Shown here: piece by piece, positions 31,754-51,778 of the stretch
How positions within the stretch are numbered: position 1 is the stretch's first letter
How the letters are laid out: each line of letters opens with the position of its first letter
Origin: Methylobacterium sp. CB376
GTDB lineage: Bacteria > Pseudomonadota > Alphaproteobacteria > Rhizobiales > Beijerinckiaceae
Length of the DNA stretch: 64,000 bases
Direction: 5' to 3'
Assembly (NCBI RefSeq): GCF_029714205.1
Contig: NZ_CP121648.1
Coordinates: 992,001-1,056,000 of the forward strand
Program-made: the position numbers and the translations under genes
The notes under the pieces: model-generated
Databases searched by the model: none
What the model saw: only the letters and a program-made list of their open reading frames with translations
What the model was told of the DNA's origin: nothing

Positions 31754-32437
31754 TCAGTAGCGCGAGGCCGACTTCACGCCCGACATGTTGACCGTCGTCA
31801 CGCGGCGGTTGACCGGGGCGTTCGGGTTCGCCGCGTCCTTGAGCTGCGTCTTGCCGTAGCCGACGCTGACGAGGTTGGTGGCGGGCACGCCGTAATTCTG
31901 GACGATGTAGTCCTTCACGGCCTGGGCGCGGCGCTCGGACAGGGCCTGGTTCGCCTGGTCCTTGCCCTTGCCGTCGGTGTGTCCGACGATCAGGAAGGTG
32001 TTGCCCTTGAGTTCCTGCCGGGCGAGGGCGGCGCCCAGGCTCTTGACCATGGGCAGGGCCTTCGGGCCGATCTTGGCGGAGTTGTAGTCGAAGGGGATCT
32101 CGAGGTCGATGCTCGGCTTGTCGGCCGAGACCGCCGCGAGCTTGCTGCGCTCGCTCGGGGTCAGCGAGGCGCGGTTGCGCAGCGAATCCAGGAAGCTGCG
32201 GTCCTCGCCGAGGGCGCCGGCGCTCGCCGCCTCGCCGCGGACGCTGGTCGAGAGGCTGCGGGTCGGCCCGGTCGCGACCGGCGCCTCGGCGGGTGCCCCG
32301 ATCAGGGCCTTGGCGATGTCGGCCTCGCTCGGGGCCTTCTGGGCGAGGGCGCCGGCCGCCGAGCCGAGGGTCAGCAATCCGGCAAGGAGCGCGGCGCGGC
32401 TCAGGCGCCGCGAGAACGTGTTAGCAGATCCAGTCAT
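31754..32437 (-). CDS. OmpA-family peptidoglycan-binding protein
   Basis: A 227-residue exported protein with a signal peptide (LAGLLTLGSAAGALAQK) and a C-terminal OmpA-like domain: IPFDYNSAKIG, FLIVGHTDGKGKDQANQALS, ERRAQAVKDYIV and NRRVTTVN. These elements bind peptidoglycan diaminopimelate in the periplasm. GAGGAG lies seven to eight bases before ATG 32437. It is strongly similar to the 38688-39320 protein, including the linker FLDSLRNRASLTPSER, so the two are recent paralogues. It lacks the eight-strand barrel of true OmpA. Confidence 0.9.
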   Translation of the reverse strand: MTGSANTFSRRLSRAALLAGLLTLGSAAGALAQKAPSEADIAKALIGAPAEAPVATGPTRSLSTSVRGEAASAGALGEDRSFLDSLRNRASLTPSERSKLAAVSADKPSIDLEIPFDYNSAKIGPKALPMVKSLGAALARQELKGNTFLIVGHTDGKGKDQANQALSERRAQAVKDYIVQNYGVPATNLVSVGYGKTQLKDAANPNAPVNRRVTTVNMSGVKSASRY

Positions 32438-32574
32438 CGTGATGCTCCTCAAAACGATCTCAGTCCAGTGCCAGACGTTCTTCGTTCGTATGCCGGTCGC
32501 TGCCCGGTCATCAGGACCGAGTGACGCCGTCTTTCCGCTCGCGTCGAGGCCGGCCGCGCGGCGCGTGGGCGGCC

Positions 32575-34236
32575 TCAACGGATTCCGTATTGGGCGAACT
32601 CTCTCTCGAGGCCCGGATCCATCCGGAGCGCATCGTTGATGTCGCTCTTCCCCTCCTCCGTCTCGCCGGTCCGAACCCGCGCCATCCCGCGGCCGTACAG
32701 GGACGAGGCCTGCTTACCATTGCCCTTCAACGCGGCATCGTAATCGCGGATGGCGAGACCGGGAAGTCCTATCTTGAGGTTGACCAGTCCACGACTGTCG
32801 AGAGCGTCCGGGAAATTGGGTCTGAGCTTCAGCGCCTCGTTGCAGTCGCGCAGTGCCCGGTCGAGTTCATCAACCATCGCGCGCACCCAGCAGCGGTTAT
32901 TGAGCGCCTCAACGTCCTGTGGGTTGAGGCGGATCACCTCGTCAAAGTCCGCCAGCGCGAGCGCGTACTCGCGGTGGATCGCGTAGAGCTGGCCGCGCCG
33001 GTAGAGGGCGGACCCGTCGGCTGGGTTGCGCTCCAGGGCCTTGTTGAGCTCGGCCCGCAGGCGCTCGTCCTCGCGGGTGTAGGGCAGCGGGGTCTGGGGC
33101 ACCTTCGGGGCGGCGACCTTGGCCTGCTCCTCGAACCGCTTCAGCTCGGCCCGGCCGCGCTCGCCCCAGGCGGTGCCCTGGAACTTGTCCGCGAAGCGCT
33201 CCATCGCCTCCCGGGTCCCGGCCTTTCGGGCGGCGGCGAACTCGGCGGACGGGTCGGCCTGCGGCTCCCGCGGCGTCTCGGGCGGTCGGCCGGCCACCGG
33301 CCCGGGCGGCGCCTCCTCGCGCGGGGGCCTCCTCCCGGCCTGCTGCGGATCCACCCAGGTCGGGCTCTCCTTCGGGGTCTGACCCTCCTTGGCAGGGAAG
33401 TCCTTGGCAGGGAAGTCCTTGGGAGAGTGGTCCTTGGCAGAAAGGTCCTTGGCAGAAAGGTCTTTGGGCGGCGGGGTGTCCTTCGCGAGGGCCCCCTCCC
33501 GCAGGCTCGAGTAGATCCAGGGGGTCTGCCCGCCCTGGCCCGCCGCCAGGGCGGAGCGGGTCCGGTCGAACACCGCGCGGCTGATCCCGTCGCTCTGGCC
33601 GAGCTGCCGGACCAGTTCCTCGGCGAAGGGGCTGCGGGCGCCCGTCGCCTGGCGCAGCATCTGGCCGGGCTGGGTCGAGTAGAAGACGAGCGCGTTCGGG
33701 GGAGCCTCGGCCGTCGCCGCGAGCCCGTTGGCGAAGCTGCGGAAGCGCCGCTCGAACGGGTTGCGGTTGGCCGCGTCCAGGATCACCACCTTCAGGTCCG
33801 CGCCGCGCTTCTGCATCTCGCTCAGGATGCCCTCGACGTTGAAGCCGTCCCGCCGCAGATCCGGCTCGGTCCAGATCTGGGCATCGACCGGTATCAGGTA
33901 ATTCTGCTTGTTCGATTGGATCCCATACCCGCTGAAGTAGAGGAGCGCGGTCGAGCCCGCCTTGATCTTGTCGTAGAAGCGCCCGAGCGCGCCCTGCAGG
34001 GCGACCTTCGCCATGTTCTCGCCGACGTCCACGGCGTAGCCCTTCTGCTGAAGGACCGCCGCCACGGCCCTGGCATCCGCGACCGGGGTCGTGAGGGCCG
34101 TGTCGCTGTCCGGGTACTGCGCGTTGCCGATCACCAGAGCGATCCGGTCGCCCGCTCTGCTTTGGGCGAAGACAGGTTGAATCGCCTGGCACGCGCTGAA
34201 CGCGAGCACGATGCCGACAATCCACAACGCACGCAT
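32575..34236 (-). CDS. Catalytically dead caspase-like (C14) protein with TPR repeats
   Basis: A 553-residue exported protein. After a signal (IVGIVLAFSACQAIQPVFAQ) it has a caspase/metacaspase p20-like domain at residues about 30-260, starting DRIALVIGNAQYPDSD. The site where active members have Gly-His-Gly reads FSGYGIQ (Tyr at 104). The site where they have Asp-Ala-Cys reads ILDAANRNP (Ala at 156). Both catalytic residues are therefore lost. A repeat-rich Lys-Asp linker follows, then C-terminal TPR units (ALYRRGQLYAIHREYALALA, ALNNRCWVRAMVDELDRALR). It may be a pseudo-protease scaffold or regulator of the intact homologue at 48301-50343. ATG 34236 has GAGG six bases upstream. Confidence 0.88.
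   Translation of the reverse strand: MRALWIVGIVLAFSACQAIQPVFAQSRAGDRIALVIGNAQYPDSDTALTTPVADARAVAAVLQQKGYAVDVGENMAKVALQGALGRFYDKIKAGSTALLYFSGYGIQSNKQNYLIPVDAQIWTEPDLRRDGFNVEGILSEMQKRGADLKVVILDAANRNPFERRFRSFANGLAATAEAPPNALVFYSTQPGQMLRQATGARSPFAEELVRQLGQSDGISRAVFDRTRSALAAGQGGQTPWIYSSLREGALAKDTPPPKDLSAKDLSAKDHSPKDFPAKDFPAKEGQTPKESPTWVDPQQAGRRPPREEAPPGPVAGRPPETPREPQADPSAEFAAARKAGTREAMERFADKFQGTAWGERGRAELKRFEEQAKVAAPKVPQTPLPYTREDERLRAELNKALERNPADGSALYRRGQLYAIHREYALALADFDEVIRLNPQDVEALNNRCWVRAMVDELDRALRDCNEALKLRPNFPDALDSRGLVNLKIGLPGLAIRDYDAALKGNGKQASSLYGRGMARVRTGETEEGKSDINDALRMDPGLEREFAQYGIR
33386..33460 (-). repeat. Five 15-bp tandem repeats in the dead-caspase gene
   Basis: Units of TCCTTGGCAGGGAAG and close variants run at 33386, 33401, 33416, 33431 and 33446. 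They encode AKD-centred pentapeptides in the linker between the caspase-like and TPR parts. The length is a multiple of three, so copy changes would keep the frame. Confidence 0.85.
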
Positions 34237-34627: not shown

Positions 34628-35164
34628 CTAGTCCACGGCGAGGCGGGTTTCGACGCGGCGGTTGGCCGGGTCGAGCGGGTTGTCGGTGAGCGGGCGGGAC
34701 TTGCCGAGGCCGCGGGCGGTGAGCTGGGCGGCCAGGACGCCGCGGCCGGAGAGGTACCGGACCACGGCGTCGGCCCGGCGGCCCGACAGGCCGAGGTTGA
34801 ACTCCTCGCCGCCGCGCGCGTCCGTGTGCCCCTCGACCAGGAAGGTCGAGGATCTCAGGCGGTCGTCGCGCAGCGCCTTGGCGAATTCGTCGAGGTTCTG
34901 CTTGGCGGCGCCGGTCAACTGGTCGGAATTGTAGTCGAAATTCACCACCAGGTCGAAGCTGCCGGTCGGCCTCGCCCGGGTTTCGACGCCGGCGTTGCAC
35001 TCGCTGTGGGTGCCGATGCAGAGCCCGCGGGTCTTGCCCAGCGGATCGGCCGGCGCGAACTTCTTGACGATGTCCTCGGCGGTATAGGCCGGGCCGGCGA
35101 CGGCAGCATGGCCGGCGCAGACCGCCGCGAGCGCGAGAATCGAGGCCGTAAACTTGCCGCGCAT
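34628..35164 (-). CDS. OmpA-family peptidoglycan-binding protein, divergent copy
   Basis: A 178-residue exported protein with a signal peptide (ASILALAAVCAGHAAVAGP) and an OmpA-like C-terminal domain: VNFDYNSDQL, FLVEGHTDARGGEEFNLGLS, GRRADAVVRYL and NRRVETRL. The mature N-terminal part has two Cys (LCIGTHSECNAG) not seen in the other two copies and possibly disulfide-bonded. ATG 35164 is chosen over TTG 35182 because AGGGGA lies about eight bases upstream and a good promoter follows. Confidence 0.9.
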   Translation of the reverse strand: MRGKFTASILALAAVCAGHAAVAGPAYTAEDIVKKFAPADPLGKTRGLCIGTHSECNAGVETRARPTGSFDLVVNFDYNSDQLTGAAKQNLDEFAKALRDDRLRSSTFLVEGHTDARGGEEFNLGLSGRRADAVVRYLSGRGVLAAQLTARGLGKSRPLTDNPLDPANRRVETRLAVD

Positions 35165-35189
35165 GTCCGAATTCCCCTGCAACGTTGCG

Positions 35190-35464: not shown

Positions 35465-36310
35465 ATGACCGGTCGGACCATGAAGACAGACGCCACCGAG
35501 CCGACGCCGCGGCCAGTCCGGGCCGCGCTGGACCTGGGCTCGGCCTGCCATGCGGGGCGCGTGCGCGAGTTGAACGAGGACCGTTTCCTGCTCGCGCCGG
35601 AGAGCGGGATCTTCGCGGTGGCGGACGGGATGGGCGGGCACGCGGGCGGCGAGGTGGCGAGCACCGCGGTGGTGGAGGCCCTGGCCGCGGTCGGGCCTGC
35701 AGCCTCGGCGGGGGACCTGCTCACCGCCCTGAAGGCGCGGCTCGCCGCCGCCAACGCGGACATCCAGAAGGTTGCCCGGGCGCGCGGCGCCGTCGTCGGC
35801 ACCACGGTCGCGGTGCTGCTGATCCACGCGCCGCACTTCGCCTGCCTGTGGTCGGGGGACAGCCGGATCTACCGGGTGCGCGGCGGGGTGCTGGCCCAGC
35901 TCTCGCGCGACCACACCGAGATCCAGTCCCTGGTCGAGCGGGGGGTGATCACCCCGCAGGAGGCGCAGACCTGGCCGCGGCGCAACGTGATCACCCGGGC
36001 GATCGGCGTGCAGGCCCAGCCCGAACTCGACCTCGACCACGGCCTGCTGGAGGCCGGCGACCTGTTCATCCTGTGCTCGGACGGGCTCACGCGGCACGTG
36101 GAGGACGGCGAGATCCTGGCGGCGGCCTCGGGCCCGGAATCCGGCAGCGCCCAGGGGCTCTGCGACGCGCTCCTCGCCCTCACCCTGCACCGCGGCGCGG
36201 CCGACAACGTCACGGTCGTGGCCGTGCGCTATCTCGGGCGTCCCGCCGACGCCCCGGCCGACTCGCCCGCCGCCTCCGGGCCGCGCCCACCGGAGGGCCC
36301 GCGCGCATGA
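35465..36310 (+). CDS. PP2C-family Ser/Thr protein phosphatase
   Basis: A 281-residue Mg/Mn-dependent phosphatase of the Stp/PppA type. Metal and catalytic motifs are all present: RELNEDRFLL, FAVADGMGGHAGGEVAS, GTTVAVLLI, LWSGDSRIYRVRGG, LCSDGLTRHV and DNVTVVAVRY. It would remove phosphate from Ser/Thr residues, most likely of the partner kinase and its targets. Its TGA overlaps the kinase ATG (ATGA), so the two are translated together. The start may be ATG 35465 or 35480; neither has a clear ribosome site. Confidence 0.93.
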   Translation: MTGRTMKTDATEPTPRPVRAALDLGSACHAGRVRELNEDRFLLAPESGIFAVADGMGGHAGGEVASTAVVEALAAVGPAASAGDLLTALKARLAAANADIQKVARARGAVVGTTVAVLLIHAPHFACLWSGDSRIYRVRGGVLAQLSRDHTEIQSLVERGVITPQEAQTWPRRNVITRAIGVQAQPELDLDHGLLEAGDLFILCSDGLTRHVEDGEILAAASGPESGSAQGLCDALLALTLHRGAADNVTVVAVRYLGRPADAPADSPAASGPRPPEGPRA

Positions 36311-37899
36311 GCGAGGAGACGGTCTTCCTCCCGCCGCAGTCCCGGTCCTTCATCGCGCCCGGCACCCGCCTCAACGACATCTACGTGATCCGCAGCCTGA
36401 TCGCGGCCGGCGGCATGGGCGAGGTCTACCGGGGCGAGGCGCTCGCCACCGGCGACGCGGTGGCGATCAAGGTGATCAAGCCGGACCTCGCCCGCAACGC
36501 CTCGGCGCTGGCCCTGTTCCGGCGCGAGGCCTCGGCCCTGCACAACCTCCACCACGAGGCGATCGTCCGCTACTTCGTGTTCTCGATCGACCCGAAGCTC
36601 GAACTCCCCTACCTGGCGATGGAGTTCGTGGACGGCGTGTCGCTCTCCGACCGGCTCAAGGAGGGTCCCCTCGACGGGCCGACGCTGCGGCTGCTGCTGC
36701 GCCGGCTCGCGGCCGGGCTGCAGGCCGCGCACGAGCTCGGGATCATCCACCGGGACGTCTCGCCCGACAACGTGATCCTGCCGGGCGGCAACGTGGCCCG
36801 CGCCAAGCTGATCGATTTCGGCATCGCCCGGGCGCCGAGCACGGACGGCACGGTGATCGGCGGGGGCTTCGCGGGCAAGTACGCCTACGTGTCCCCCGAG
36901 CAGCTGGGGCTCTACGGGGGCGAGGTCACCCCGCAATCGGACATCTACAGCCTCGGCCTGCTGATGGCGCACGCGGCGCGCGGCCGCGCCCTCGACATGG
37001 GCAGCAACCACGTCGACGTGGTCGAGAAGCGCCGGCGCGTGCCGGACCTGACCGGGATCGAGGAGCCGATCCGCGGCCTGCTGCAGGCGATGTTGCAGCC
37101 CAACCCGAAGGACCGGCCCGCCGACTTGGCGGCGGTGGCGGCGCTGGCCGCGGCCGAACCGGCCGCCCCCCGGCGCCTGCCCGTCGCGGTGCTGGCCGCG
37201 GCGGGCGGGGGCGTGGCCGCCACCGCCGCCCTCGCGGCGCTCGCCTTCGCGGTGCTGCCGGCGCGCCGGGCGGAGGCGCCGCTCACCACCCCGGTGCCGC
37301 AGGTGGTCGGCCCGGCCGAGCCGGTGGTGACGCCGAGCGTGCCCGCCCCGCCGACCGAGCCCTCCTCGCGGGCCGATCCCTCCTCGCGGGCCGAGCCCGC
37401 GCGGCCGCCCTCGGCCACGAAGCCGCCGATCATCGCCCTGCCCGACCCGGGCGAGGATCCGGACGCGCCGCCCGCATCCCCCCGGGACCCCCGGCGCGAG
37501 CCCCCGCCCCTCCCCGCCCCCGGCCGTGACCACGACCGCCGAGGAGGTGGAGAGCTTCATCCGCAAGTACGACGGGGGCGACTGCTTCTTCATCACGCCG
37601 GTGACGACCCAGCCGCCCGACATCACGGTCGACGCCTTCGGGCGCTCGACGCAGCCCTTCCGGGATTTCGACCAGGCGTTCAAGAACGCGCTCGGGATCG
37701 AGTCGCAGATCACCCTGCGGCAGGTGAGCGAGGCGCAGTGCCCCGTCGTCGCCTTCCTGGCGCGCCACTACCCGCAGCGCGACGCGCGCGCGGCGAGCAT
37801 CACCATCACGCAGGACCTGCTCCACAGCGGGCAGGACCTCGTCGGCACGGTCGAGACCCGCGGCGACCGCGCGGTCGACCTGCTCCTCGTGGCGGATGA
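36307..37899 (+). CDS. Hanks-type Ser/Thr protein kinase, frameshifted before its C-terminal domain
   Basis: A kinase with a complete catalytic core: Gly loop AAGGMGEVYRG, Lys at about 55 in VAIKVIKPD, IIHRDVSPDNVIL with Asp150 and Asn155, and LIDFGIA with Asp170. A transmembrane helix (AALAALAFAVLP and preceding residues, about 291-320) and a Pro/Ser/Glu-rich stalk follow, so the kinase faces the cytosol and the C-terminus the periplasm. At about 37500-37525 the frame runs into Arg/His/Pro-rich nonsense ending at 37899, while the natural continuation is the +1 frame at 37526-38152. One extra base in the C-rich run explains this; the repaired protein would have 614 residues. Confidence 0.88.
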   Translation: MSEETVFLPPQSRSFIAPGTRLNDIYVIRSLIAAGGMGEVYRGEALATGDAVAIKVIKPDLARNASALALFRREASALHNLHHEAIVRYFVFSIDPKLELPYLAMEFVDGVSLSDRLKEGPLDGPTLRLLLRRLAAGLQAAHELGIIHRDVSPDNVILPGGNVARAKLIDFGIARAPSTDGTVIGGGFAGKYAYVSPEQLGLYGGEVTPQSDIYSLGLLMAHAARGRALDMGSNHVDVVEKRRRVPDLTGIEEPIRGLLQAMLQPNPKDRPADLAAVAALAAAEPAAPRRLPVAVLAAAGGGVAATAALAALAFAVLPARRAEAPLTTPVPQVVGPAEPVVTPSVPAPPTEPSSRADPSSRAEPARPPSATKPPIIALPDPGEDPDAPPASPRDPRREPPPLPAPGRDHDRRGGGELHPQVRRGRLLLHHAGDDPAARHHGRRLRALDAALPGFRPGVQERARDRVADHPAAGERGAVPRRRLPGAPLPAARRARGEHHHHAGPAPQRAGPRRHGRDPRRPRGRPAPRGG

Positions 37900-38152
37900 C
37901 GGGCGGGTGACCAATCTCAGCCGCTCCGCCAAGCGGACGGGCGAGACCCTGCGCTTCTCGCTGCGGATGGAGGGGAGCGGCGTGCCGCGGCCGCAGCTCG
38001 TGGTGGTCGTGACCAGCCAGAAGCCGCTGACGAGCGTGCGCTCCGGGATCAACGGCCGGGCCGAGCAGCTCTTCCGGCAGATCGGCGACGAACTCGACCG
38101 CGATCCCCGTCCGGCGGGGATCGCGGTCGCCTATTTCAAGCTCGGGAGCTGA
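37526..38152 (+). pseudogene. C-terminal periplasmic domain of the kinase, displaced by frameshift
   Basis: A 208-codon frame starting VTTTAEEVESFIRKYDGGDC that carries ordered, protein-like sequence to TGA 38152. It has no ribosome site (the upstream is all C and G), so it is best read as the end of the kinase gene. The region FDQAFKNALG and a later beta-rich part (DLVGTVETRGDRAVDLLLVA, LVVVVTSQKPLTSV) look like a sensory or binding domain outside the membrane; the latter recalls DUF4384-type domains, but this is not firm. Either the locus is inactivated, translation slips in the C-run, or the sequence has an error. Confidence 0.75.
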
Positions 38153-38197
38153 GATCCTCCGGGCCGTGATCCTCTGGGCCGTCCGGCCCGGGGGCGC

Positions 38198-38687: not shown

Positions 38688-39320
38688 TCAGTTGCGGCTC
38701 GCGACCTGCGGCGCCGACATGTTGACGGCGGTGACGCGGCGATTGGCGGCCGCGTAGGGGTTGGCGGCCTCCTTCAGGTGGCTCTTGCCGAAGCCGACGC
38801 CGATCAGGTTGCCGGCCGCCACGCCGTAATGCCGGACGATGTAGTCCTTCACCGCCCGGGCGCGCCGCTCCGAGAGCCGCTGGTTGCCGCGGTCGCTGCC
38901 CTTCCCGTCCGTGTGGCCGACGATGAGGATCGTGCTGTCGCGCAGTTCCGGGCGGGCCAGGCTGGCGCCGAGCGCGCTCACCTGCGCGAGCGCGCCGTGG
39001 CCGATCTTCGAGGAATTGTACGCGAAGGGGATGTCGAGGGCGATGCTCTGCTTGTCGGACGAGAGCGCGGCGAGCCGGTCGCGCTCGGCCGCCGACAGGG
39101 ACGACCGGTTGCGCAGGGAATCCAGGAAGACCTGCTCCTCGCGCCCGCCGCGGTCCGGCACGACCAGGGTGAGGCTGCGGGTCTGGGGCCGCGGCATCAG
39201 CGCGCGGACGATGTCGTCCTCGGTCACGGTCTGCGCGCGGGCCCCGCCGGACCCGAGAAGCAGCGCGAGCGCGACGAGCGGACCGAACCCGGAAGGGCTC
39301 CGACGAGGGAACGCGACCAT
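38688..39320 (-). CDS. OmpA-family peptidoglycan-binding protein
   Basis: A 210-residue exported protein: signal region LVALALLLGSGGARAQT, a short N-terminal segment (TEDDIVRALMPRP), linker FLDSLRNRSSLSAAER and OmpA-like domain (IPFAYNSSKIGHGAL, ILIVGHTDGKGSDRGNQRLS, NRRVTAVN). It is clearly a paralogue of 31754-32437 and shares the DIVRAL-like segment with the 34628 protein (DIVKKF). GAGG lies eight bases before ATG 39320. It likely tethers an envelope complex to peptidoglycan. Confidence 0.9.
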   Translation of the reverse strand: MVAFPRRSPSGFGPLVALALLLGSGGARAQTVTEDDIVRALMPRPQTRSLTLVVPDRGGREEQVFLDSLRNRSSLSAAERDRLAALSSDKQSIALDIPFAYNSSKIGHGALAQVSALGASLARPELRDSTILIVGHTDGKGSDRGNQRLSERRARAVKDYIVRHYGVAAGNLIGVGFGKSHLKEAANPYAAANRRVTAVNMSAPQVASRN

Positions 39321-42800: not shown

Positions 42801-43182
42801 AGGTGATGCCGCTCGCCGGGTTGCGCGTGTCCACGTCGGAGAAGAAGGGCGCGATGATCGGCGCCCCGCGGTAATTGGCGCCGAGGCCGACCGGCGTGAA
42901 CGTGCTCAGGGGCGTCCCGAACGTCACGTTGCCGTTGTTGTTGACGTAGAGCGACGAGTAGGTCGTGCCGAAGAAGTTGGCCGTGAAGGGCAGCGCCACC
43001 TCGCCGGTGGAGCCGTCGTCGTTGCGGGCGAGCTGATTGGCGTCGAAGCCCGGCACCACGCTCTGCGCGTAGGCCGCGCCGGCCAGCACCGGAAGCCCCG
43101 CGAAGGAGACGCCGATCATCAGCAGGCGCTTCATCCGCGCAAGGCCGCGCGCGCGGCCCGTTTCGTACCCCAGCGTCACCAT
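39808..43182 (-). CDS. Autotransporter with N-terminal NIDO-like domain
   Basis: About 1124 residues, surface-exposed or secreted by type V secretion. After the signal (MKRLLMIGVSFAGLPVLAGA) a nidogen-like NIDO domain of about 200 residues is visible: LPFTANFFGTTYSSLYVNNN, NVTFGTPLSTF, IIAPFFSDVDTRN, TNTFQLVLASRAD. A long Gly/Thr/Asn-rich beta-helix passenger follows (repeated TITNAG and NSGTITAP-like units). The last 280 residues are an autotransporter barrel ending in Phe (GIRYQFSTF). NIDO domains occur in cell-adhesion proteins, so adhesion is the likely role. The start is GTG/ATG-ambiguous: ATG 43182 (used) or ATG 43134, directly before the signal. Confidence 0.88.
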   Translation of the reverse strand: MVTLGYETGRARGLARMKRLLMIGVSFAGLPVLAGAAYAQSVVPGFDANQLARNDDGSTGEVALPFTANFFGTTYSSLYVNNNGNVTFGTPLSTFTPVGLGANYRGAPIIAPFFSDVDTRNPASGITSYGTGTYAGQTAFGVTWPSVGYFSNHADKTNTFQLVLASRADTGGGNFDIYFNYQRIQFETGDASGGTNGLGGTSASAGYSAGTGAAGSYFELPGSLVNGALIDGGPNSLVAGSNNGVPGQFLFPVRNGVVMLANVCQPGDNASTTQIANCGPNRAYTGGIFYTPLDKFTLNVLDNTTIAGPQNAAAVLVMPTAATTGASPAGSVAINVNASATITAPGGAGIQIDSGSGTGAGSVTSAGTITAATAGIQADTNRGALTVANSGTITAPLGISGSSRTTTALSNSGTLNASYAGLVGGGFTGTVTLTNTGTVNYGQFGILGGSAVAPLVISNAGALTQSATASGPPATGLPTLIAGFLQTNANPSAIFARAGGAISIENGANGTIAGANGIDAAVLSSVPGLPATGAATGPLTITNLGTIDVQGAAITTAASAVASQVTNAGTLTGSLALSSGSTFTNTASGRVNVTGASSFGGGTITNAGGISLASTSLQNLSGFQNQGSGLLIATGTSSIGSQTQGTSFVNAGTISLVNGRAGDTLTINGNYVGQNGRLLAEFNTQTSTGDRLIINGNASGTTGVTVTNLTGAVPFTTGSPIVTVTGTSAANAFTLAGAQNFGTLEAILVATTGQGGTSVALGTVPTAVGLSASTAVIAARTIAFQGGSAVLDRLTQVRDSLKAAPGQTAIPQAMQYNGLSAYSALVTKDPIAPKLAEPAPQTTTRPAIWARAYGDIESRSGFSNFSFGGLNFTRDLGYSQVSGGFLGGTDVVISGLTKPDDGLILGVMGGYTLAGVDLNRNAGRQDYEGGTVGVYGTYLNGPWFWDALFKVDLLGLDIRAPGVVQRTGLQNYNFTTNVGYRVPLEHNIYVEPTAGLEYVSTVFDRTPALAVGAVPLRDGEALRGRIGARIGTEMVEDNIRIEPSITGYVYSVLTETGTVGAFNGITGVTGLREEGKVRGEVQASINFFNLKTGLSGFIRGDYRIGGDLVGGGGRAGIRYQFSTF

Positions 43183-43704
43183 CCCGCACCCCCGAACACG
43201 TCCCAGCGAGCCGGTCGGCGGGTCGCGCCCGCCCCGGCCCATGCCCGCCCCTCGCGGCGGCCGGCCCGACCCCGATCCCCGTCGGCGGCCGGTCCGGCGC
43301 GTGATCTCCGTCCGAAGACGCACATCAGGTCAGGCCTCTCGATCAGCATAACGGTCACGCTCGGCCAGCGTCTATTGCTAGACTGCCCGGCCGAGCACGC
43401 GAAACAACTCCGTTGCCGGGATGCCACAGCCGGCTTCCTCGCCACTGATTCGTTTCGAGTACAGCTGGCGATGAGCGTAAAGAGTTTCTTGCGAGATCGG
43501 CGCTCGACTCTGACCGGTATTCGTCCGATGCGGCAGATCTCGTTCCGGCCGGCGCCGGTCGAGCGAGGGATCTTGAGCGCATCAGAACCGGAACGGGATC
43601 GGTCGCGACGCGGATCGACTGGAGGCTGTTGTGGACCGGAGACGGGCGTTGTGTCGCGTCAGCGACGTCCGGCCCTGGCCAGCACGATTCCTGTCCCGGG
43701 TCGA
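43183..43704. other. Intergenic region between autotransporter and HD-GYP genes
   Basis: About 520 bases with no supported gene. The part near 43340-43480 is AT-richer than its surroundings and probably carries the autotransporter promoter and leader. An imperfect GC-rich inverted stretch lies near 43550. Confidence 0.4.
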
Positions 43705-44766
43705 TCACGGCCTCTCGCCGGCCAGCGCGCGGCCGAAGGATTGGACGAGGCCGGCTTCGAGCTTGCCATCCATGCTCTGCAGGATGGTCATGGCCTCCCG
43801 CATCGGCATCGGCGTCTTGTAGGGACGGCGCTCGGTCAGGGCCGCGTAGATGTCGCAGATCGTCATCAGCCGCACCCCGTCGCTGACCGCCGCGCCCGCG
43901 AGCCTGTCCGGGTAGCCGGACCCGTCGAGGAACTCGTGGTGGTGGCGGACCACGTCGAGGGTGAAGGCGTCGCACTCGCCGCCGGCCTTCAGGATGTCGT
44001 GGCCGAGCGCCGCGTGGGTGCGCATCACCGCCGCCTCGTCGGGCGAGAGCCGGCCGGGCTTGGTGAGGATCGGGAGCGGGATCCGCGCCTTGCCGACGTC
44101 GTGGACGAGGGCGGCGCGCACGAAGCGCTGCTGGTCGTCGCGCCGGAAGCGCAGGTGCAGGGCGAATTGCGCGGCGAGGCCCGCCACCAGCAGGCAATGC
44201 TGGTAGGTGGCGTCGTCGTGCGTCCAGACCGTGTCGAGCCAGCGCGCCAGCCCGCCCTCCCGCACGGCGGTCAGGATCGGGGTCAGGCCCGCCTCGACGG
44301 TCTGCATGCGGATCCGGCTGCCCGCGCGCGCCTCCGCGAGCAGGCTGGTCAGCGCCTCCCCGGCCCGCGCGACGCCCTGGACCACCGCCGCCTCGCCCAC
44401 CGGGCCGAACGCCTCGAGCTGGTTGAACAGGGCCGCCACCACCGTGTCGGGCGGCACGTAGGCCGGCAGGCAGACGGTGGCGCCGAGCGTCTTGGCGTGG
44501 CGCAGGGATTCCGTCGAGGTGCGGCGCAGGAGCCCGATCACCGGCAGCGCGCGGCCCCGGTAGCGCTTCTCCAGGGCCCGCAGGCAGGTGGACGCCTCGG
44601 GCCGGGTCAGGGTCAGGTCCGCGACCACGCCGATCAGCGCGGCGTCGCGGGTCCAGCGCTCGTCGGTCCCCACCACCTCGCAGCGCCCGACCGATCCGAG
44701 CGCCCGCGCGAGCGCGGCGCTGCGGTCCGGCCGATCGGTGACGAGGACGATGGTTCCCTCCGGCAT
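43705..44766 (-). CDS. HD-GYP domain protein with degenerate receiver-like N-terminus
   Basis: A 353-residue protein. The C-terminal HD-GYP domain (about residues 185-340) has the metal-site motifs LVHDVGKARIPLPILTKPG and HHHEFLDGSGYPDRLAG, so it probably hydrolyses cyclic di-GMP. The N-terminal 120 residues have receiver-like topology (TIVLVTDRPDRSAALARALG, VIGLLRR, LGATVCLPAYVPPDTVV) but lack a clear acidic phosphorylation pocket, so phosphorylation is doubtful. GGGAG lies eight bases before ATG 44766. It is a cytosolic second-messenger enzyme in the signalling region. Confidence 0.9.
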   Translation of the reverse strand: MPEGTIVLVTDRPDRSAALARALGSVGRCEVVGTDERWTRDAALIGVVADLTLTRPEASTCLRALEKRYRGRALPVIGLLRRTSTESLRHAKTLGATVCLPAYVPPDTVVAALFNQLEAFGPVGEAAVVQGVARAGEALTSLLAEARAGSRIRMQTVEAGLTPILTAVREGGLARWLDTVWTHDDATYQHCLLVAGLAAQFALHLRFRRDDQQRFVRAALVHDVGKARIPLPILTKPGRLSPDEAAVMRTHAALGHDILKAGGECDAFTLDVVRHHHEFLDGSGYPDRLAGAAVSDGVRLMTICDIYAALTERRPYKTPMPMREAMTILQSMDGKLEAGLVQSFGRALAGERP

Positions 44767-44932: not shown

Positions 44933-45841
44933 TCAGTTCAGGGCCTGGCCCTCCCCGACGCGGATCGGCCGGACGAGGTCGCCCTCGCGCACGAAGGGGG
45001 CGGCGCGCACGACCACGAGGTCGTTCTCGGACAGGCCGCTGCGGATCTCGACCTCGTCCTCCGAGAACAGCCCGACCGCGACCGGGCGCGCCTCGATGTG
45101 GTTCTGGCTGACGACGTAGACCGTGGTGCCGTCCTGCCCGCTCACCAGCGAGGAGAAGGGCACGGCGATCCCGCAGCTCTCGCCGACCGAGACGGTGCCG
45201 CGGGCGTACATGCCGAGCCGCGCCTCGCCGATCGCGCTGAGCAGGATGCGCACCTGCCCGAGCTGGCTCGCCGCATCCGTCGAGGGGGAGACCAGCCGCA
45301 CCCGGCCGCTGATCGGGCCGAGGCCGAGGGGCTTCACGGTCACGGGCTGGCCCGGGGCGATCTTCCCGAGCGCCGTGATCGGCGCGTCGGCCGCGAGTTC
45401 GATCTCGCCCTGCCCGATGATCACGAAGAGCGGATCGGAATGGGCCGGGGCGGGCCCGCCGATCGTGGCGGTGCTGCGGCCGACCACGCCCGCGACGGGG
45501 GCGCGGATCGGGATCGGGGTCGGGTTGACCGAGCCGTCGTCGGGGACGAGCTGGGCGAGGACCTGGTTCTGCCGCACCTCGTCGAGGGGCCGGACGGCGA
45601 CCTGCTGCACGCGCAGCCCGTCCCGCTCGGGGCGGATCTGGACCTCCTGGCGGGCGGCGAGCACGCCGGTCACGTCGACCCGGTCGTCGAAGCAGCGCCG
45701 CTTGGCCGGCGCGACGCTGACGGCGAGGCCGGCGCTCGGCGCCGTCTCGGCCGCGACCGGGCCGGCGAGCGCCGCCCACAGCAGGGCCGCGAGCGCGGGC
45801 GCCGCGCGACGCGGCAGGCGATGGATGGGACGACGCGACAC
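44933..45841 (-). CDS. RND-type periplasmic adaptor, orphan paralogue
   Basis: A 302-residue exported protein with a signal (ALAALLWAALAGPVAAE), the paired half-motifs of adaptors (IRPERDGLRVQQVAVRPLDE, IRAPVAGVVGRSTATIG) and C-terminal barrel segments (YARGTVSVGESCGIAVPFSS, DEVEIRSGLSENDLVVV). It is similar in architecture to 30694-31596, including the barrel Cys-Gly-Ile-Ala-Val and the DDVEIRSG/DEVEIRSG segment. GTG 45841 has GAGGAG upstream and starts the signal. No RND permease or outer-membrane factor is adjacent, so it may use a pump encoded elsewhere or have another periplasmic role. Confidence 0.85.
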   Translation of the reverse strand: MSRRPIHRLPRRAAPALAALLWAALAGPVAAETAPSAGLAVSVAPAKRRCFDDRVDVTGVLAARQEVQIRPERDGLRVQQVAVRPLDEVRQNQVLAQLVPDDGSVNPTPIPIRAPVAGVVGRSTATIGGPAPAHSDPLFVIIGQGEIELAADAPITALGKIAPGQPVTVKPLGLGPISGRVRLVSPSTDAASQLGQVRILLSAIGEARLGMYARGTVSVGESCGIAVPFSSLVSGQDGTTVYVVSQNHIEARPVAVGLFSEDEVEIRSGLSENDLVVVRAAPFVREGDLVRPIRVGEGQALN

Positions 45842-46007
45842 GACCTCGCTCCTCTCTTCGACGCGGCAACGGCCCGGGGCGGCGCCCGCCGGGCCGGGAC
45901 GCGGCGGAACCGCCCCGGGCGGTTCCGCCGACACTTCTCGCTCTCGCATCATCCCCACCGGCGCGGGCTGACGCGGCGCCGGACGAGGGCGCGGGCGGGA
46001 CCGGCCC

Positions 46008-47843
46008 TCACGGCCGCGCGCCCGGACGGGCGGGACCCGGCCGCAGGGGGGCGCGCGATCCCCCGCCGCCTCCGCCGCCGAACAGGGATTCCAGCATCCC
46101 GCCGAGCGGGTTGGCCTTGCCGCCCTCCAGCATCTCCGACCCGAGGGCGCCGAGATTCGACAGGGTCTGCCCGTTCAGCACGGCGCCGAGATCGACGCTG
46201 ACCTGCGGCGCGTCCCAGGAGCCGCCGATGAGCACGGGCAGGCTCACGTCGAACAGCTTCGGGAGCGCGCGGGCGGCGGTGCGCGTCAGGCGGGGCTCGA
46301 TGCGGAAGGCCAGGGTGCGGGCGGAGAGGTCGATGGTCCCGGTCCCCCTGGCGGTGACCAGGGGACCGGCGAGGGCGAGGTCCTGGGTCGTCGCCCGCCC
46401 GTCCGCGATGCGGAACCGGGACGAGATGCGGTCGAAGGCGGTGGCGTCCTGGCTGCGCAGCCGCGGATCGGGGGAGAGCTGCTGGGCGACCGACTGGACC
46501 ACGCCCGGGATGTCGATCCCGGTGAGGCGCCCGTTCTCGACCTGGATGGCCGCCTCGCCCGAGAGGGATCTGGCGAGTTCGGCCTGGCTGCTGCCGCTCG
46601 CCTTGAGGTCGATGGTGGCGCCCGCCGTCCCGTCGAGGAGCGCGAAGCCCGAGGCGGCGGAGAGGAGCGGCAGGCTGCGGACCTGGGTGAGGTCGAGGTG
46701 GAGCGCGTGGCGGGGCGGCGCGCTCCCGCGCGCCTCCCGGGCGATGTCGGACCTGAGCGTGGCGCGCACCTGCCCGCCCGCGAGCCCGCCCTGCGTCAGG
46801 GCCGCCTCGATCCCCCCCTCCGTGAGCTTGCCGTCGAGGAGCGCCTCGGTGAGGGAGAGCCCGCCCGCCCGCAGGGCGCCGAGGCGGATCCTGGCGCGGC
46901 CGTCGAAGCTGCGCAGCAGGGCGGGATCCAGGGACGCGTCCCCGAGTCCCCCGGCGGCCGGGAGGTCCAGGCTGCCGCCGGCGAGGTCGATCCGCACGAA
47001 GGGCTTGGCGGTGAGGTCGACCACCACCGCGCCCGTGAAGGGCACGGCGCCGACCTGGGCGGAGAGGCGCGCCAGGGTCAGGGCGGCCCCGTGCAGGGCC
47101 GCGTCGGCGCGGCCCTCAAGCGGCTCGGCGCCGAGCCCGGGCACCCGGCAGCTGAAGGTCAGGGGCGCGCTCTCCCCCTCCTCCGGGGGCGCGACGGACA
47201 CGTCGCAGCGCGCCGCCCCGCCGCCGGTGCGGCCCCCCGCCTTGACCTCGTACCCGCCCGCGCGGGCCAGGGCCTCGGCGGAGAGATCCTCGACGGAGGC
47301 CACGACCGTGTCGCCCTTGACGAGGAGGAGCGCGCCCCCCGTCACCCGGACGCGTTCGGGCCGCGGCCCGGCGGACCCGGCGTGCCCGGCGTGCCCGGCG
47401 GGGCCGGCCTGCTCGCGCGCGGGATCGGGTGCGGGATCGGGATCCGGTGCGGCGCCCGCTGCGGCTGCGGCGCCCGCGGGCGCGCCGGCGCGCCACCACT
47501 CGGCCGGCCAGCGCAGGACCGGGCGCTCGACCTCGATCGCGGCGAGGTCGCGCCCGGCGAGGAGGTCGAGGGGCGCACCGGTGACCCGCAGGCTGGCGAT
47601 GTCGAGGCTCGCCGTGCCGACCCCCGGGTAATCCGTGCGGGTCCCGACGTCGCGCAGGACGACCGCAACGCGCGGCCACAGGGACAGGCTGGCCCCGCCC
47701 CGGACGGTCCAGGTCCGGCCGGTCTCGGCGGCGAGGCGCTCCTGCGCCGAGCGCACGATCATGGCCGTGCCGGACGAGGCCGCGACGCCGACCGCGAGGC
47801 AGCCCGCGGCGGCAAGCAGAAGGGAGAGGTTGCGCAGCTTCAT
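46008..47843 (-). CDS. AsmA-family protein
   Basis: A 611-residue inner-membrane-anchored periplasmic protein of the AsmA group, thought to bridge lipid movement between inner and outer membrane. One N-terminal helix (LLLAAAGCLAVGVAASSG) is followed by the AsmA N-terminal pattern (LSLWPRVAVVLRDVGTRTDY) and the conserved C-terminal core FDRISSRFRIADGRATTQDL and FRIEPRLT. GAGGA lies five bases before ATG 47843. Low-complexity Gly/Ala/Pro stretches near residues 110-140 and at the end are linkers. It is unlinked to a lipid operon here. Confidence 0.88.
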   Translation of the reverse strand: MKLRNLSLLLAAAGCLAVGVAASSGTAMIVRSAQERLAAETGRTWTVRGGASLSLWPRVAVVLRDVGTRTDYPGVGTASLDIASLRVTGAPLDLLAGRDLAAIEVERPVLRWPAEWWRAGAPAGAAAAAGAAPDPDPAPDPAREQAGPAGHAGHAGSAGPRPERVRVTGGALLLVKGDTVVASVEDLSAEALARAGGYEVKAGGRTGGGAARCDVSVAPPEEGESAPLTFSCRVPGLGAEPLEGRADAALHGAALTLARLSAQVGAVPFTGAVVVDLTAKPFVRIDLAGGSLDLPAAGGLGDASLDPALLRSFDGRARIRLGALRAGGLSLTEALLDGKLTEGGIEAALTQGGLAGGQVRATLRSDIAREARGSAPPRHALHLDLTQVRSLPLLSAASGFALLDGTAGATIDLKASGSSQAELARSLSGEAAIQVENGRLTGIDIPGVVQSVAQQLSPDPRLRSQDATAFDRISSRFRIADGRATTQDLALAGPLVTARGTGTIDLSARTLAFRIEPRLTRTAARALPKLFDVSLPVLIGGSWDAPQVSVDLGAVLNGQTLSNLGALGSEMLEGGKANPLGGMLESLFGGGGGGGSRAPLRPGPARPGARP

Positions 47844-48300
47844 CCTGTCCTCGCAACCCGCGGCACCGCGCGGGAAAGCAGAGCGCACTCTCCGCGCGAA
47901 ATCAATCGGGCGGAACGACGTCCGCTCGTCTGATCGTTCGCGCGCTCGTCCGCGTCGTTCGCGCGCGCTCGTTCGCGCGCTCGTCCGCGCGTGCAGGCCC
48001 GCCGGCCGGGCGGGCCGCCGCGGGCCGATCCGGCGGGCAAGGGGCCGGCAGGAGAGTCCGGGCCCGGCGCGCCACCGTGCCCCGCCGCACGCGGCGGAGC
48101 CCCGTCTTCGACCAATCGCCCGCGCTCGCGGCAAGATCCTGTATTTTCTCGACTTTGGGTGAGCGGTAGCCCGTCCCGCCTGATCTCTCGCGGGTGCCCG
48201 GGCCCGGGGCCGTCGGACTGGTAAAGACCATGTCGAGACGGGAGACGATGTGTGCCGCGGCACTTGCCCGGGTTGGCCGGTGGCGTGTAGATTTGAGGCT
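47844..48300. other. Divergent intergenic region with a CG-rich simple repeat
   Basis: About 455 bases between the AsmA gene and the caspase gene. Bases 47936-47991 are a degenerate run of CGCGCTCGT/CGTTCG units. A shorter AT-richer stretch near 48130-48160 (TATTTTCTCGACTTTGG) and the region 48260-48300 may carry promoters; no gene or RNA is supported. Confidence 0.5.
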
Positions 48301-50343
48301 ATGAAACGGTCTCTCTCAGGATTTCTCGCTCTGCTGCTCACGCTGTGGGCAGGCATGGCCGTTTCGGCCCCGGCGGAGAAGCGCGTCGCCCTCGTCATCG
48401 GCAATGCCGCCTATGACAGTTTCGGCAAGCTGGCCAATCCCGGCAACGACGCCGAGGATCTCGCGGCCCTGCTGCGCAAATCCGGTTTCGACGTGATCGA
48501 CGGCCGCGACCTCTCGCGCCGCGACATGGACCGGAAGCTCGCGCAGTTCTCGCGGCTCGCGACGGATGCGGACACCGCCCTCGTCTACTATGCCGGGCAC
48601 GGTCTGCAATATCAGAGCCAGAACTACCTGGTGCCGGTCGACGCGCAGCTGCGGGACGGGTTCGACGTGCCGTTCGAGACGATCTCGGTCGAGTTCGTCA
48701 TCTCGGCCCTCGACAACGCCAAGGGCGCCCGGATCCTGATCCTCGACGCCTGCCGCGACCTGCCCCTGAAGGATGTCGGCAACAACGCCGCCAGCCACGG
48801 CCTCGCGCGGGCGGTCGGCCGCAAGGGCCTGATCCTGGCTTACGCCACCCAGGCCGACAGCGTCGCCTTCGACGGCACCGGCCGCAACAGCTTCTTCGCG
48901 GGCGCGCTGCTGAAGGCCATGCAGGAGCCGGGCCTGGAGATCGGCCAGGTCTTCCAGCAGGTCGCCTCGACGGTGTCGGGCCTCACCAACGGCCGCCAGC
49001 TGCCCGAAATCACCCGGTCCTACCCGGGCGAGGTCTTCCTCAACCACGAGGAGACGGACATGCAGGCCTGGTCGCGGCTGCGCCGGAGCAACCAGCTCGC
49101 GGAGCTGCGCCAGTTCATCGCGAAGTACCCGAACAGCCTGCTGATCGACGACGCGATGACCCGCATCCAGCTGCTCGAGGCCCGGGCGACGCCCGACCGC
49201 AACGAGCAGCGCGAGCCCGCCCTGCCGCGCCAGGACATGGCCAGGGACACGGCCCGCCGCGAGGAGGAGGAGCGGCTCGCCGAGGTCGCCCGCCGCAAGC
49301 GCGAGGAGGAAGCCAAGCGCCTGGAGCAGGCCCGGCAAGAGACCACCCGTCAAGAGACCGCCCGTCTCGAAGCCGCGCGCGTCGCCGAGCAGGCCCGGCT
49401 CGCGGCCGAGGCGGCCCGGGCGCAGCAGGCCGCCAAGCTCGACGCCGAGAAGGCCGCGCCGACCGAGACGGCGCTGGCGACGGTGCCGACGACCTACACG
49501 GCGCTGCCGACCGGCGAGACGGCGCCGAAGCCGGCCGCCGCGGGCGAGGCGCCCGCCGCCGCAAGCGAGCCCGCCGCCGCGCCGGTGGTGAAGACCGCGT
49601 CCCTGTCCCAGCCCGTGGCCGAGGAGAAGGGCGTTTCCGAGCGGGTCGTGCGCGCGGTGCAGCAGCGCCTCGTCGATCTCGGCTGCTACCAGGGCCGGCC
49701 GGAATCGTCGTGGGGCAGGCAATCCTCGGAGGCGCTCGACCAGTTCTACCGCCTGTCGCAGGCGAGCGACCCGGCGAAGACCCGCGCGGTCAAGATCGTG
49801 TCGCACATGCCCGATCAGGCGACGCTGGACGTGCTCAACACCTACAACCAGCGGATCTGCCCGGTCTCGTGCCCGACCGGGTCGGAGCCGAAGGGCGAGG
49901 TGTGCGTGAAGATCACCTGCCCGACCGGGATGGAGCTCGACGGGAACGAGTGCCACCCCCGCCGCAAGTCGATCCAGGCGACGCTGCCGGCCGAGACGAC
50001 CAAGAAGGCCCCGGCCGCCGCCGCGAAGGAGACGGCCAAGCCGAAGCTGGCCAAGCGGCCCGAGCCCCAGGACGAGGAGGAGCCCGTCCAGAAGCCCAAG
50101 GCCAAGGCCAAGGCGGCGCCCGTGGTGCGGGAGACGCCGAAGGCCGCCAAGCCGGTGGTCCGCGAGGCGGCCCGCCCGGTGGCCCCGAAGGTGAAGGTGG
50201 TGGAGCCGATCCGGGTCCGCGCGCCGGTCCCCTCCCTCGCCCGCACCCCGCGCTACGCGCCGGGCCCGGCGGCGGCCTCGGCGGCGCCGAGCTACACCCC
50301 GGCGGAGATCGGGGCCTCCCGGATGATGAGCCGGATGCCCTGA
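48301..50343 (+). CDS. Caspase-family (peptidase C14) protein, catalytically intact
   Basis: A 680-residue exported protein. After a signal (SLSGFLALLLTLWAGMAVSA) comes a caspase-like domain at about residues 27-245 with both catalytic motifs: VYYAGHGLQ (His100) and LILDACRDLP (Cys151). It is therefore a predicted Cys peptidase in the periplasm. A short helix-rich part follows (AWSRLRRSNQLAELRQF), then a coiled-coil of Glu/Arg/Ala (about 330-400) and a low-complexity linker. Next are a peptidoglycan-binding-like unit (VQQRLVDLGCYQGRPESSWG) and a Cys-rich tail (CPTGSEPKGEVC, CPTGMELDGNEC). It starts at ATG 48301. It is the active counterpart of 32575-34236. Confidence 0.92.
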   Translation: MKRSLSGFLALLLTLWAGMAVSAPAEKRVALVIGNAAYDSFGKLANPGNDAEDLAALLRKSGFDVIDGRDLSRRDMDRKLAQFSRLATDADTALVYYAGHGLQYQSQNYLVPVDAQLRDGFDVPFETISVEFVISALDNAKGARILILDACRDLPLKDVGNNAASHGLARAVGRKGLILAYATQADSVAFDGTGRNSFFAGALLKAMQEPGLEIGQVFQQVASTVSGLTNGRQLPEITRSYPGEVFLNHEETDMQAWSRLRRSNQLAELRQFIAKYPNSLLIDDAMTRIQLLEARATPDRNEQREPALPRQDMARDTARREEEERLAEVARRKREEEAKRLEQARQETTRQETARLEAARVAEQARLAAEAARAQQAAKLDAEKAAPTETALATVPTTYTALPTGETAPKPAAAGEAPAAASEPAAAPVVKTASLSQPVAEEKGVSERVVRAVQQRLVDLGCYQGRPESSWGRQSSEALDQFYRLSQASDPAKTRAVKIVSHMPDQATLDVLNTYNQRICPVSCPTGSEPKGEVCVKITCPTGMELDGNECHPRRKSIQATLPAETTKKAPAAAAKETAKPKLAKRPEPQDEEEPVQKPKAKAKAAPVVRETPKAAKPVVREAARPVAPKVKVVEPIRVRAPVPSLARTPRYAPGPAAASAAPSYTPAEIGASRMMSRMP

Positions 50344-50370
50344 CCTCCCCGCGATCCGCCAGATCCCCGC

Positions 50371-50395: not shown

Positions 50396-50857
50396 TCTCG
50401 TTTGGGGCGCCGGCCGACCCGGCGGAGGGGGAGGGATCGGCGGCGCCTCGCGCGGTCCTCGGTGGGTTCGGTAGCGCCGTCCGAAGGCCGGGATCGGCTG
50501 CTCGGACCGCGAGATCCCGCCCCCGCTGTCCCGGACGCGGGACAGGCGATGACGGCCCTGGCCGATCTGCGTGCCGAACCGATCACCACCGATCCGCACG
50601 GCAGCCATCCGGCGCGGATCAGAACAAGACCGCCGAAATCCAAGGCAATGCCCGGGCGCGAGACGAGTCCGGACGGATCCGGCGGACACCGAAACGGTAC
50701 GCGCTCGCCGCAATGAGCGAGGGGGCGGGATCGGTGGGCCGGCCGTGTCGGCGCGGAGCGGCCCCGCCCCGGTCGTCGCGGTGGAATCGGGCGTGCGCGG
50801 GAGGCCGCGCCGGTGTCGGCCCGCACCGGGAGGCGGGCCGCATGCCCGCCTGCCGCG
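50396..50857. other. Intergenic region, nothing found
   Basis: About 460 GC-rich bases between the terminator of the caspase gene and the end of the minus-strand cyclase gene. I see no gene, RNA or clear promoter. Confidence 0.4.
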
Positions 50858-51778
50858 CTACTCCGCCCCGCCCACCGTCAGGGCGAAATCGAGGGCGCTG
50901 GCGCGGTCGAGGCCGACCGAGCGGCCGATGCCGAGGGTGCCGACGTCGCGCAGCACCAGCTCCTCGCGGCGCATGCAGAATTCCTCGGCCCCGAACAAGG
51001 TCACGTAGGTCCCGTTCGTGCTGTGATCGACCAGCACCCACTTGTCGCCCCGGCGCTCGATCGTGGCGTGGCGGCGCGAGGCGTAGTCGTTGTCGACGAC
51101 GATGTCGTTGGCCGATTCCCGCCCCAGCGAGACGCTGGCGTGGCGCTCGTCGAAGAGCCAGCGCCGGCCCCGGTAGGTGATGCGCAGGTCGTTGCCGGCG
51201 GGCGGGCGCTCGCCCGCCGCCGGCAGGAGCGAGAAGACCGTCTGGTTCTCGGCGAGGTGCCAGAGCACCTCGGCCACCCGCACGTCGTCGCTCGCCCCCT
51301 TCACGTAGACGCCGACGAGGCTGCGGGTCGCCGCCCGCTGCAGCGGCGGCAGGCTGTCGGCCAGGGCGCCGGTCGTGATGATCTGCCCGCCCTTGGCGAT
51401 CGCCACCATCCGGGCCGCCATGTTCACGGTCGTGCCGAAGTAATCGTCGTTGGCCTGCACCGCCGGCCCGAAATGGAAGCCGATCCGCAGCTGCAGGTGC
51501 TGCCCCTCGACCTGCCCGACCCGGTCGTCCTCGAACCGGCGCTGAACCGCCACGGCGGCGTCGCACATGGCGCAGACGTCGGAGAAGACCGCCATGAACT
51601 CGTCGCCGATGGTCTTGACGATGCGTCCGCCATTGGCCTGGACCACGTCGGCGGCGCAGCCCAGGCAGCTTTCCACGATGCGCAGGGCCGCGTCATCGCC
51701 GAGATCGCGGTAGAGCCGCGTGCTCCCTGCGACGTCGCAGAACAGGACGCCGATGGAGCAGGGTTCGGTCGTGCTCAT
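50858..51778 (-). CDS. Class III nucleotide cyclase fused to an FHA domain
   Basis: A 306-residue cytosolic protein. The N-terminal two-thirds are a class III adenylate/guanylate cyclase: LFCDVAGSTRLYRDLG (first metal Asp), VKTIGDEFMAVF (second metal Asp and substrate Lys) and FGTTVNMAARM (Asn/Arg transition-state pair). The C-terminal FHA domain has SLGRESANDIVV, SRRHATIE and STNGTYV, the standard phosphothreonine-reading residues. The fusion links a phospho-Thr signal, plausibly from the kinase/phosphatase pair at 35465-38152, to cyclic nucleotide synthesis. ATG 51778 is chosen because it starts right before the cyclase fold. Confidence 0.92.
   Translation of the reverse strand: MSTTEPCSIGVLFCDVAGSTRLYRDLGDDAALRIVESCLGCAADVVQANGGRIVKTIGDEFMAVFSDVCAMCDAAVAVQRRFEDDRVGQVEGQHLQLRIGFHFGPAVQANDDYFGTTVNMAARMVAIAKGGQIITTGALADSLPPLQRAATRSLVGVYVKGASDDVRVAEVLWHLAENQTVFSLLPAAGERPPAGNDLRITYRGRRWLFDERHASVSLGRESANDIVVDNDYASRRHATIERRGDKWVLVDHSTNGTYVTLFGAEEFCMRREELVLRDVGTLGIGRSVGLDRASALDFALTVGGAE

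Follow-up and report, generated by a model that had tools for sequence, protein, structure and literature searches.

What does a kinase-phosphatase pair of the type VI secretion system (T6SS) kind do in a genome from which the secretion system itself is missing? The question is raised by a 64,000-nucleotide stretch of DNA, analysed whole and hereafter called the window, from the genome of Methylobacterium sp. CB376 (7.69 Mb, 2 contigs, 99.96% complete), for which the closest named locus among the matches listed is that of Methylobacterium sp. WSM2598, with 99% identity across the matched stretch. An earlier note on this DNA had proposed an envelope-signalling system between 31754 and 51778, in which a wall-sensing kinase would act through an FHA protein on a cyclic nucleotide, with a caspase as output. 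We consider it on balance probable that the locus encodes a threonine-phosphorylation module of T6SS descent, kept without the weapon and probably signalling through a cyclic nucleotide. The computed basis of this reading is the T6SS-type ancestry of the pair, the co-location of the genes across species, their intact motifs, the purifying selection on them and the absence of TssC, TssM and Hcp from the genome.

The conserved block occupies positions 27306-51904 of the window. At its left edge lies an AcrB-type RND pump gene (27306-30641, minus strand; Pfam ACR_tran, 755 bits), which adjoins the module in relatives, and to its right follow, all on the minus strand, a HlyD/membrane fusion protein (30694-31752; Pfam HlyD_3), OmpA1, an OmpA-family protein with a signal peptide by eye (31754-32437, from the likely start within ORF 31754-32578; Pfam OmpA, 69.9 bits), a pseudocaspase with TPRs (32575-34236, ORF to 34266; Pfam Peptidase_C14, 111.8 bits, plus TPR) and OmpA2 (34628-35182; Pfam OmpA, 76.7 bits), the last of a type shared with Mesorhizobium T6SS loci. 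The spacings from pseudocaspase through OmpA1 and HlyD to AcrB are 137, 1 and 52 bp, which suggests that these four genes form one transcript. On the plus strand come the PP2C phosphatase of PppA type (35465-36310; assigned by Pfam PP2C_2, motifs and tree) and the PpkA-type Ser/Thr kinase (36307 to approximately 37500; Pfam Pkinase, 120.9 bits, and motifs), which has a kinase domain, one predicted membrane helix (from the same-species copy) and a Pro-rich linker; its C-terminal domain of about 205 residues, presumably periplasmic, is encoded in another frame at 37526-38152. Beyond the kinase, again on the minus strand, are OmpA3 (38688-39320; Pfam OmpA, 59.9 bits), a NIDO-domain autotransporter (39808-43323, likely start near 43134; Pfam NIDO, 116 bits, and Autotransporter, 73.5 bits), an HD-GYP-type protein (43705-44766; Pfam HD_5, 96 bits), a second membrane fusion protein, HlyD2 (44933-45958; Pfam HlyD_3), and an AsmA-family protein (46008-48404; Pfam AsmA). 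A caspase with an intact catalytic dyad (48301-50343, plus strand, ORF from 48250; Pfam Peptidase_C14, 139 bits) is followed at the right edge by a fusion of a class III nucleotide cyclase to a C-terminal FHA domain (50858-51778, minus strand, ORF to 51904; Pfam Guanylate_cyc, 61 bits, and FHA, 52 bits). The parts named in the earlier note are thus real by Pfam, namely three OmpA proteins, two caspase-like proteins, PP2C, Pkinase, the cyclase with FHA and the HD-type domain, and the conserved set reaches past the left edge of 31754 given there to include the AcrB and HlyD genes at 27306-31752, with the autotransporter likewise a part of it.

That the block is a unit can be seen from its surroundings. 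When 101 gene calls over 144 kb, made by a simple third-position GC rule that may miss small genes, were set against the surroundings of the block in three congeners (G020, G113 and G122; 79-100 kb each), the 15 calls within the block, one of them an antisense artefact (36229-37713, minus strand), found matches for 12, 10 and 12, respectively, with the OmpA3 match falling at the place of OmpA1. The 86 calls outside the block found 0, 2 and 1 matches, at 48-55% identity and scattered, and the flanks of the three congeners, compared with each other, had one shared pair (51% identity). Because the flanking genes are almost unshared while the block genes match, the block holds together in four different neighbourhoods, and we infer that it moved as a unit. 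This was the gene-order and co-occurrence check that the earlier note had called for, and it finds the core members grouped across differing neighbourhoods, so that independent scattering of the core genes is rejected.

Within the genus, the block type is present in 9 of 111 genomes, with PP2C identities of 69-100%, whereas PP2C relatives at E 1e-20 occur more widely, in 27 genomes at 31 places, 22 of which are of another type. All nine block loci hold AcrB, HlyD, OmpA1 and the pseudocaspase, where the gene content of stretches cut short has been completed from the overlapping named loci L039 and L041. OmpA2 is in eight (none was seen in G122), as is the autotransporter (the contig ends in G109), and the active caspase is in seven, being missing from the G113 stretch and lying past the contig end in G109. 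Two candidates for the core fall away on these counts: the HD-GYP protein, which the earlier note had taken as a component of the system, is found at three of the nine loci, and OmpA3 at two, both of the same species.

The descent of the pair can be read from its relatives. The best 80 of at least 303 confirmed kinase matches fall in 79 distinct loci, in 73 of which TssK, TssL, TssM or TagF lies within the sequence fetched. The remaining six are five loci of the block's own type and L117, which has no T6SS gene in the fetched locus and has TssC elsewhere in its genome. In three loci scanned with Pfam, DotU/TssL and IcmF/TssM lie just upstream of the PP2C-kinase pair, and some of these loci also have TssK and TagF. 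The annotation of three plasmid T6SS loci gives the same arrangement. Of the 22 places with the other type of PP2C, 20 have a TssM domain no more than 3 kb away; of the two others, one is at a contig edge (G102) and one, which has an in-frame stop, is on a separate contig without a TssM match (G109:C181). A joint tree of PP2C and kinase was built from tblastn segments, X standing for stops, and entered by 39 of 40 rows (L117, without PP2C, was left out). In it the block type comes out as a single clade (100/100) that lies among T6SS-linked pairs, at a position which the tree does not fix. A tree of the kinase domain alone groups the block with T6SS-linked Methylobacterium kinases at 91/86, below the starred level, with L117 labelled as T6 despite the lack of a T6SS gene in its fetched locus. 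The likeness to T6SS loci, which the earlier note had raised as an analogy, is in the case of the kinase pair common ancestry.

The weapon, on the other hand, is absent. A search of the block's own genome for one sheath, one tube and one membrane-complex gene, TssC, Hcp and TssM, found none, and the nine block loci have no match to TssK, TssL, TssM, TagF or TagH in the fetched stretch. The earlier statement that no T6SS core gene lies nearby accordingly extends to these three genes across the genome, and the use of the block by a T6SS elsewhere in the same genome is rejected. What remains of the T6SS threonine-phosphorylation module is a PP2C adjoining a PpkA-lineage membrane Hanks kinase, together with an FHA reader, though one that is cyclase-fused and not of the TagH type, and with no link to, or regulation of, a T6SS. 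The module is real and co-inherited, a T6SS-type kinase pair without a T6SS.

The PP2C and kinase genes overlap by 4 bp, and the PP2C motifs, as well as the glycine loop, VAIK, HRD and DFG motifs of the kinase, are intact in all nine block loci. The outer domain of the kinase recurs in 88 of the 97 ORFs for such kinases, including T6SS-linked ORFs (some loci counted twice), and has two cysteines that are invariant across 30 alignment rows; it matched no Pfam or NCBIfam family, and a search for solved relatives gave a best E of 0.13. The single helix and the two-cysteine outer domain are consistent with a role for the kinase as an envelope sensor. The coupled phosphatase and kinase with a periplasmic domain described in the earlier note stand as to the coupling and as to the outer domain being encoded, but in this assembly that domain is out of the kinase frame, the break falling in a C-rich tract near 37480-37530. 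Kinase and outer domain share a single frame in all eight other block-type loci fetched, and the length of the C-rich tract differs in the one same-species genome compared. The break may have arisen in sequencing or be peculiar to the strain, and intact copies exist in the other loci. The kinase gives the only Pkinase match above the Pfam cut-off in the whole genome (4 candidates scored). The one other Pkinase match there is a partial one of 27 bits, below the cut-off, in an LRR protein whose C-terminus is kinase-like but divergent (L186, at G000:C1:5119865).

The FHA-cyclase holds the single FHA match in the genome (8 candidates scored), and its FHA motifs GR, SRRH and NG are intact in all seven copies with the FHA part fetched. 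The cyclase motifs FCDVAGST, VKTIGDEF and DYFGTTVNMAAR are intact in all six block copies that span them (the stretches of L148 and L151 stop short of the gene, and that of L155 covers part only); they contain what we take to be the active-site metal Asp, Lys, Asn and Arg residues, and the active site is apparently complete. At E 1e-25 the FHA-cyclase occurs in 13 of the 111 Methylobacterium genomes, the nine with the block and four that bear a T6SS, and all 13 have a PP2C, as against 27 of the 111 overall (Fisher 6.7e-10, with related species counted as independent). In Chelatococcus (L046 and L056) it follows a T6SS kinase by about 1.5 kb or less, and in G011 and G111 it adjoins a PpkA-type kinase of another kind, FGE-sulfatase at its C-terminus, on a contig separate from the T6SS. 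A small gene lies between the FGE-bearing kinase and the FHA-cyclase in these two genomes (L205 7423-11134 and L204 7164-10981), with DUF4399 in G011. One type of FHA-cyclase reader thus accompanies three PpkA-type kinase settings, which is an association and not proof. Against a TagH profile the protein scored 31 bits, the cut-off being 120.

Putting these parts together, the kinase-to-cyclic-nucleotide step would be the best-supported reading, and one might picture its working as follows. The PpkA kinase, the PppA phosphatase and an OmpA partner would have come from a T6SS that is itself gone; the outer domain of the kinase, surrounded by OmpA and pseudocaspase proteins, would read the state of the envelope, and the kinase would then phosphorylate a threonine of its own or of a membrane partner. 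There is precedent in T6SS pathways: PMC10482370 describes threonine phosphorylation of Fha or TssL by PpkA and, in Agrobacterium, the binding of phosphorylated TssL by Fha. In the block, the FHA domain of the cyclase would dock on the phosphothreonine, docking would place or activate the cyclase to raise a cyclic nucleotide, probably cAMP, and PppA would reset the system. The stimulus, the phosphorylation target, the FHA docking, the switching-on of the cyclase and its product are all inferred. The path from kinase through FHA to cyclase suggested in the earlier note draws strength from two findings, namely that FHA and above-cut-off Pkinase matches occur once each in the genome and that FHA-cyclases adjoin two other PpkA-type kinases; the caspase output suggested there gains no support, having co-location in its favour and no active caspase found near the G113 block. 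Several observations count against the relay: in two of the four genomes with an FHA-cyclase outside the block (L202 and L203) no related kinase lies within the 12-20 kb fetched around it; in G121, the closest other species, some 33 kb separate the PP2C from the FHA-cyclase, the latter keeping its right-hand neighbours Ddl and MFS; the kinase of the window is frame-broken; the LRR protein is a second, sub-cut-off kinase-like candidate; CRP-like sites are not enriched (4 found against 6.3 expected); and dN/dS of the core genes rises to 0.23-0.56 when the more distant G020 is the comparison. In the fullest form of the reading, a T6SS phosphorylation pathway freed from its weapon was rewired as a phosphothreonine-to-cyclic-nucleotide envelope relay with one kinase, one phosphatase and a cyclase that doubles as the one FHA reader. 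Its genes share a block, found in differing genomic places, with those for a pseudocaspase, OmpA proteins, an autotransporter and an RND pump. This form is offered as a tentative one, a little short of even odds in our estimation.

The arrangement of the left half of the block permits a different reading, in which the kinase targets the envelope operon of pseudocaspase, OmpA1, HlyD and AcrB, or the transcription of that operon, the FHA-cyclase being a passenger that answers to an input of its own. These four genes adjoin the pair in the block loci, and their close spacing suggests a single transcript; yet the only FHA match of the genome sits in the FHA-cyclase, and at the thresholds used that protein is never found without a PP2C in the 111 genomes, which makes a mere passenger unlikely.

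Compared with G121, dN/dS is 0.08 for the kinase domain, 0.11 for the FHA-cyclase, 0.20 for PP2C and 0.23 for the pseudocaspase, and lies between 0.08 and 0.38 over these four together with OmpA1, OmpA2, the autotransporter and the caspase, with dS estimated by simple counting in DNA of very high GC content. The first HlyD gives 0.46, and two genes just outside the block give 0.16 and 0.28; the values are higher for the core genes against the more distant G020 (0.23-0.56), and for the FHA-cyclase against four further species they are 0.38-0.44. These values argue that the block parts are under purifying selection and in use. They bear on the view that the block is a decaying relic of a lost T6SS, with the frame break as a sign of decay, for which one might cite the five of nine block genomes that lack TssM and the broken kinase of the window. 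The nine copies, however, form one clade with kinase and PP2C motifs intact, the four genes named first above stay at 0.08-0.23, and the break affects one copy in nine, in a C-rich tract where sequencing error is possible; a relic is thus very unlikely.

The caspases bring in a further possibility. The upstream one lacks both catalytic residues, having FSGYGIQ and LDAAN where the active caspase has YAGHG and LDACR, and Tyr-Ala replaces the dyad in all nine block copies; both residues are lost in 28 of 28 genomes with a pseudocaspase relative at E 1e-40 among the 111 of the genus, in a search seeded with a pseudocaspase. The active caspase keeps its dyad in all seven block loci where the gene was found, and in G113 none was seen within roughly 25 kb past the FHA-cyclase. 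One dead and one active caspase-like protein, as first described, are thus confirmed, and both look exported, a judgement made by eye. Of the 73 T6SS-linked loci, 59 have a caspase-like ORF in the fetched stretch and 46 a separate OmpA, and a caspase-OmpA appendage seems common there. In six other loci of the pseudocaspase family (L011-L016, of L011-L022 and L175-L181), an OmpA gene adjoins the pseudocaspase, with no kinase pair in the short stretch fetched. A set of caspases, a kinase and a Pycsar-like cyclase could also be read as an anti-phage defence island, and PADLOC does return PD-T4-6-type kinase profiles at up to 181 bits along with weak PycC and caspase profiles. The PADLOC kinase matches, however, span the kinase domain at large, the PycC and caspase profiles reach at most 40 and 34 bits, the caspases look exported, and 73 of the 79 kept relatives of the pair (best of at least 303) lie in T6SS loci, all of which renders a defence role highly improbable. 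Service as an accessory to a T6SS encoded elsewhere deserves hardly any credence, for while four of the nine block genomes have TssM, three of these (G121, G109 and G174) own a second PP2C within 3 kb of it, and the other five have no TssM at all.

The T6SS-descended phosphorylation module may then be compared with what is known. With the T6SS PpkA-PppA-Fha/TagH pathway it shares the coupled PP2C and membrane kinase, the kinase and outer domains of Rhizobiales T6SS-linked kinases and an OmpA of the same type near the pair; it differs in that its genome has no TssC, TssM or Hcp and its FHA is cyclase-fused, with no Fha of TagH type. A parallel in layout is the T6SS locus of Mesorhizobium ciceri pMESCI01 (L207), where TssL-TssM-PP2C-kinase is followed by DUF1036, an M23 peptidase, OmpA, caspase, OmpA, autotransporter and caspase, and to an OmpA of which the OmpA2 of the block gives 140 bits; unlike the block, this locus has VgrG, TssL, TssM and TagH and no FHA-cyclase annotated in the stretch shown, and its autotransporter has no match to the NIDO protein of the block. 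Residues 49-187 of the cyclase match solved class III nucleotide cyclases (PDB 4wp3, Ma1120), which differ in lacking the C-terminal FHA, and none of the 19 solved sequences listed spans both domains in its best stretch. The pseudocaspase, a p20 domain without the His-Cys dyad, fits the pseudo-orthocaspases that PMC6426788 describes as common in Alphaproteobacteria, with His and Cys of p20 replaced and TPRs in some; it shares with them the dyad-less p20 and TPR, and differs in its Tyr-Ala dyad and its operon-like setting with OmpA, HlyD and AcrB beside a kinase pair. The block would give such pseudocaspases a concrete genetic setting. In the open-access literature, surveyed by titles and the starts of abstracts and with subscription papers mostly outside its scope, no paper was found on an FHA-cyclase with a PpkA-type kinase or on a PpkA-PppA pair free of a T6SS.

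If the relay reading is true, the regulatory arm of a secretion system outlived its machine and gained a new output. Because the genome's single FHA and its single Ser/Thr kinase above the cut-off both lie in the block, it would offer an unusually clean setting in which to test whether a Hanks kinase drives a cyclic-nucleotide signal.

Some smaller points concern the edges of the block and its reach. A search of 72,556 plasmid records returned neither the FHA-cyclase (E 1e-30) nor the pseudocaspase (E 1e-40). The FHA-cyclase region, 50858-51904, is still 57-71% identical to relatives when read in the wrong frame, and overlapping open frames in GC-rich DNA can mislead similarity searches. Directly left of the block, an ORF at 26601-27239 (in the region 26527-27305) has in-frame stops and no Pfam family, and the 2-kb bin 26001-28000 has a GC content of 61%, the remaining bins having 67-77%; this low-GC stretch and its ORF may mark the site at which the block was inserted.
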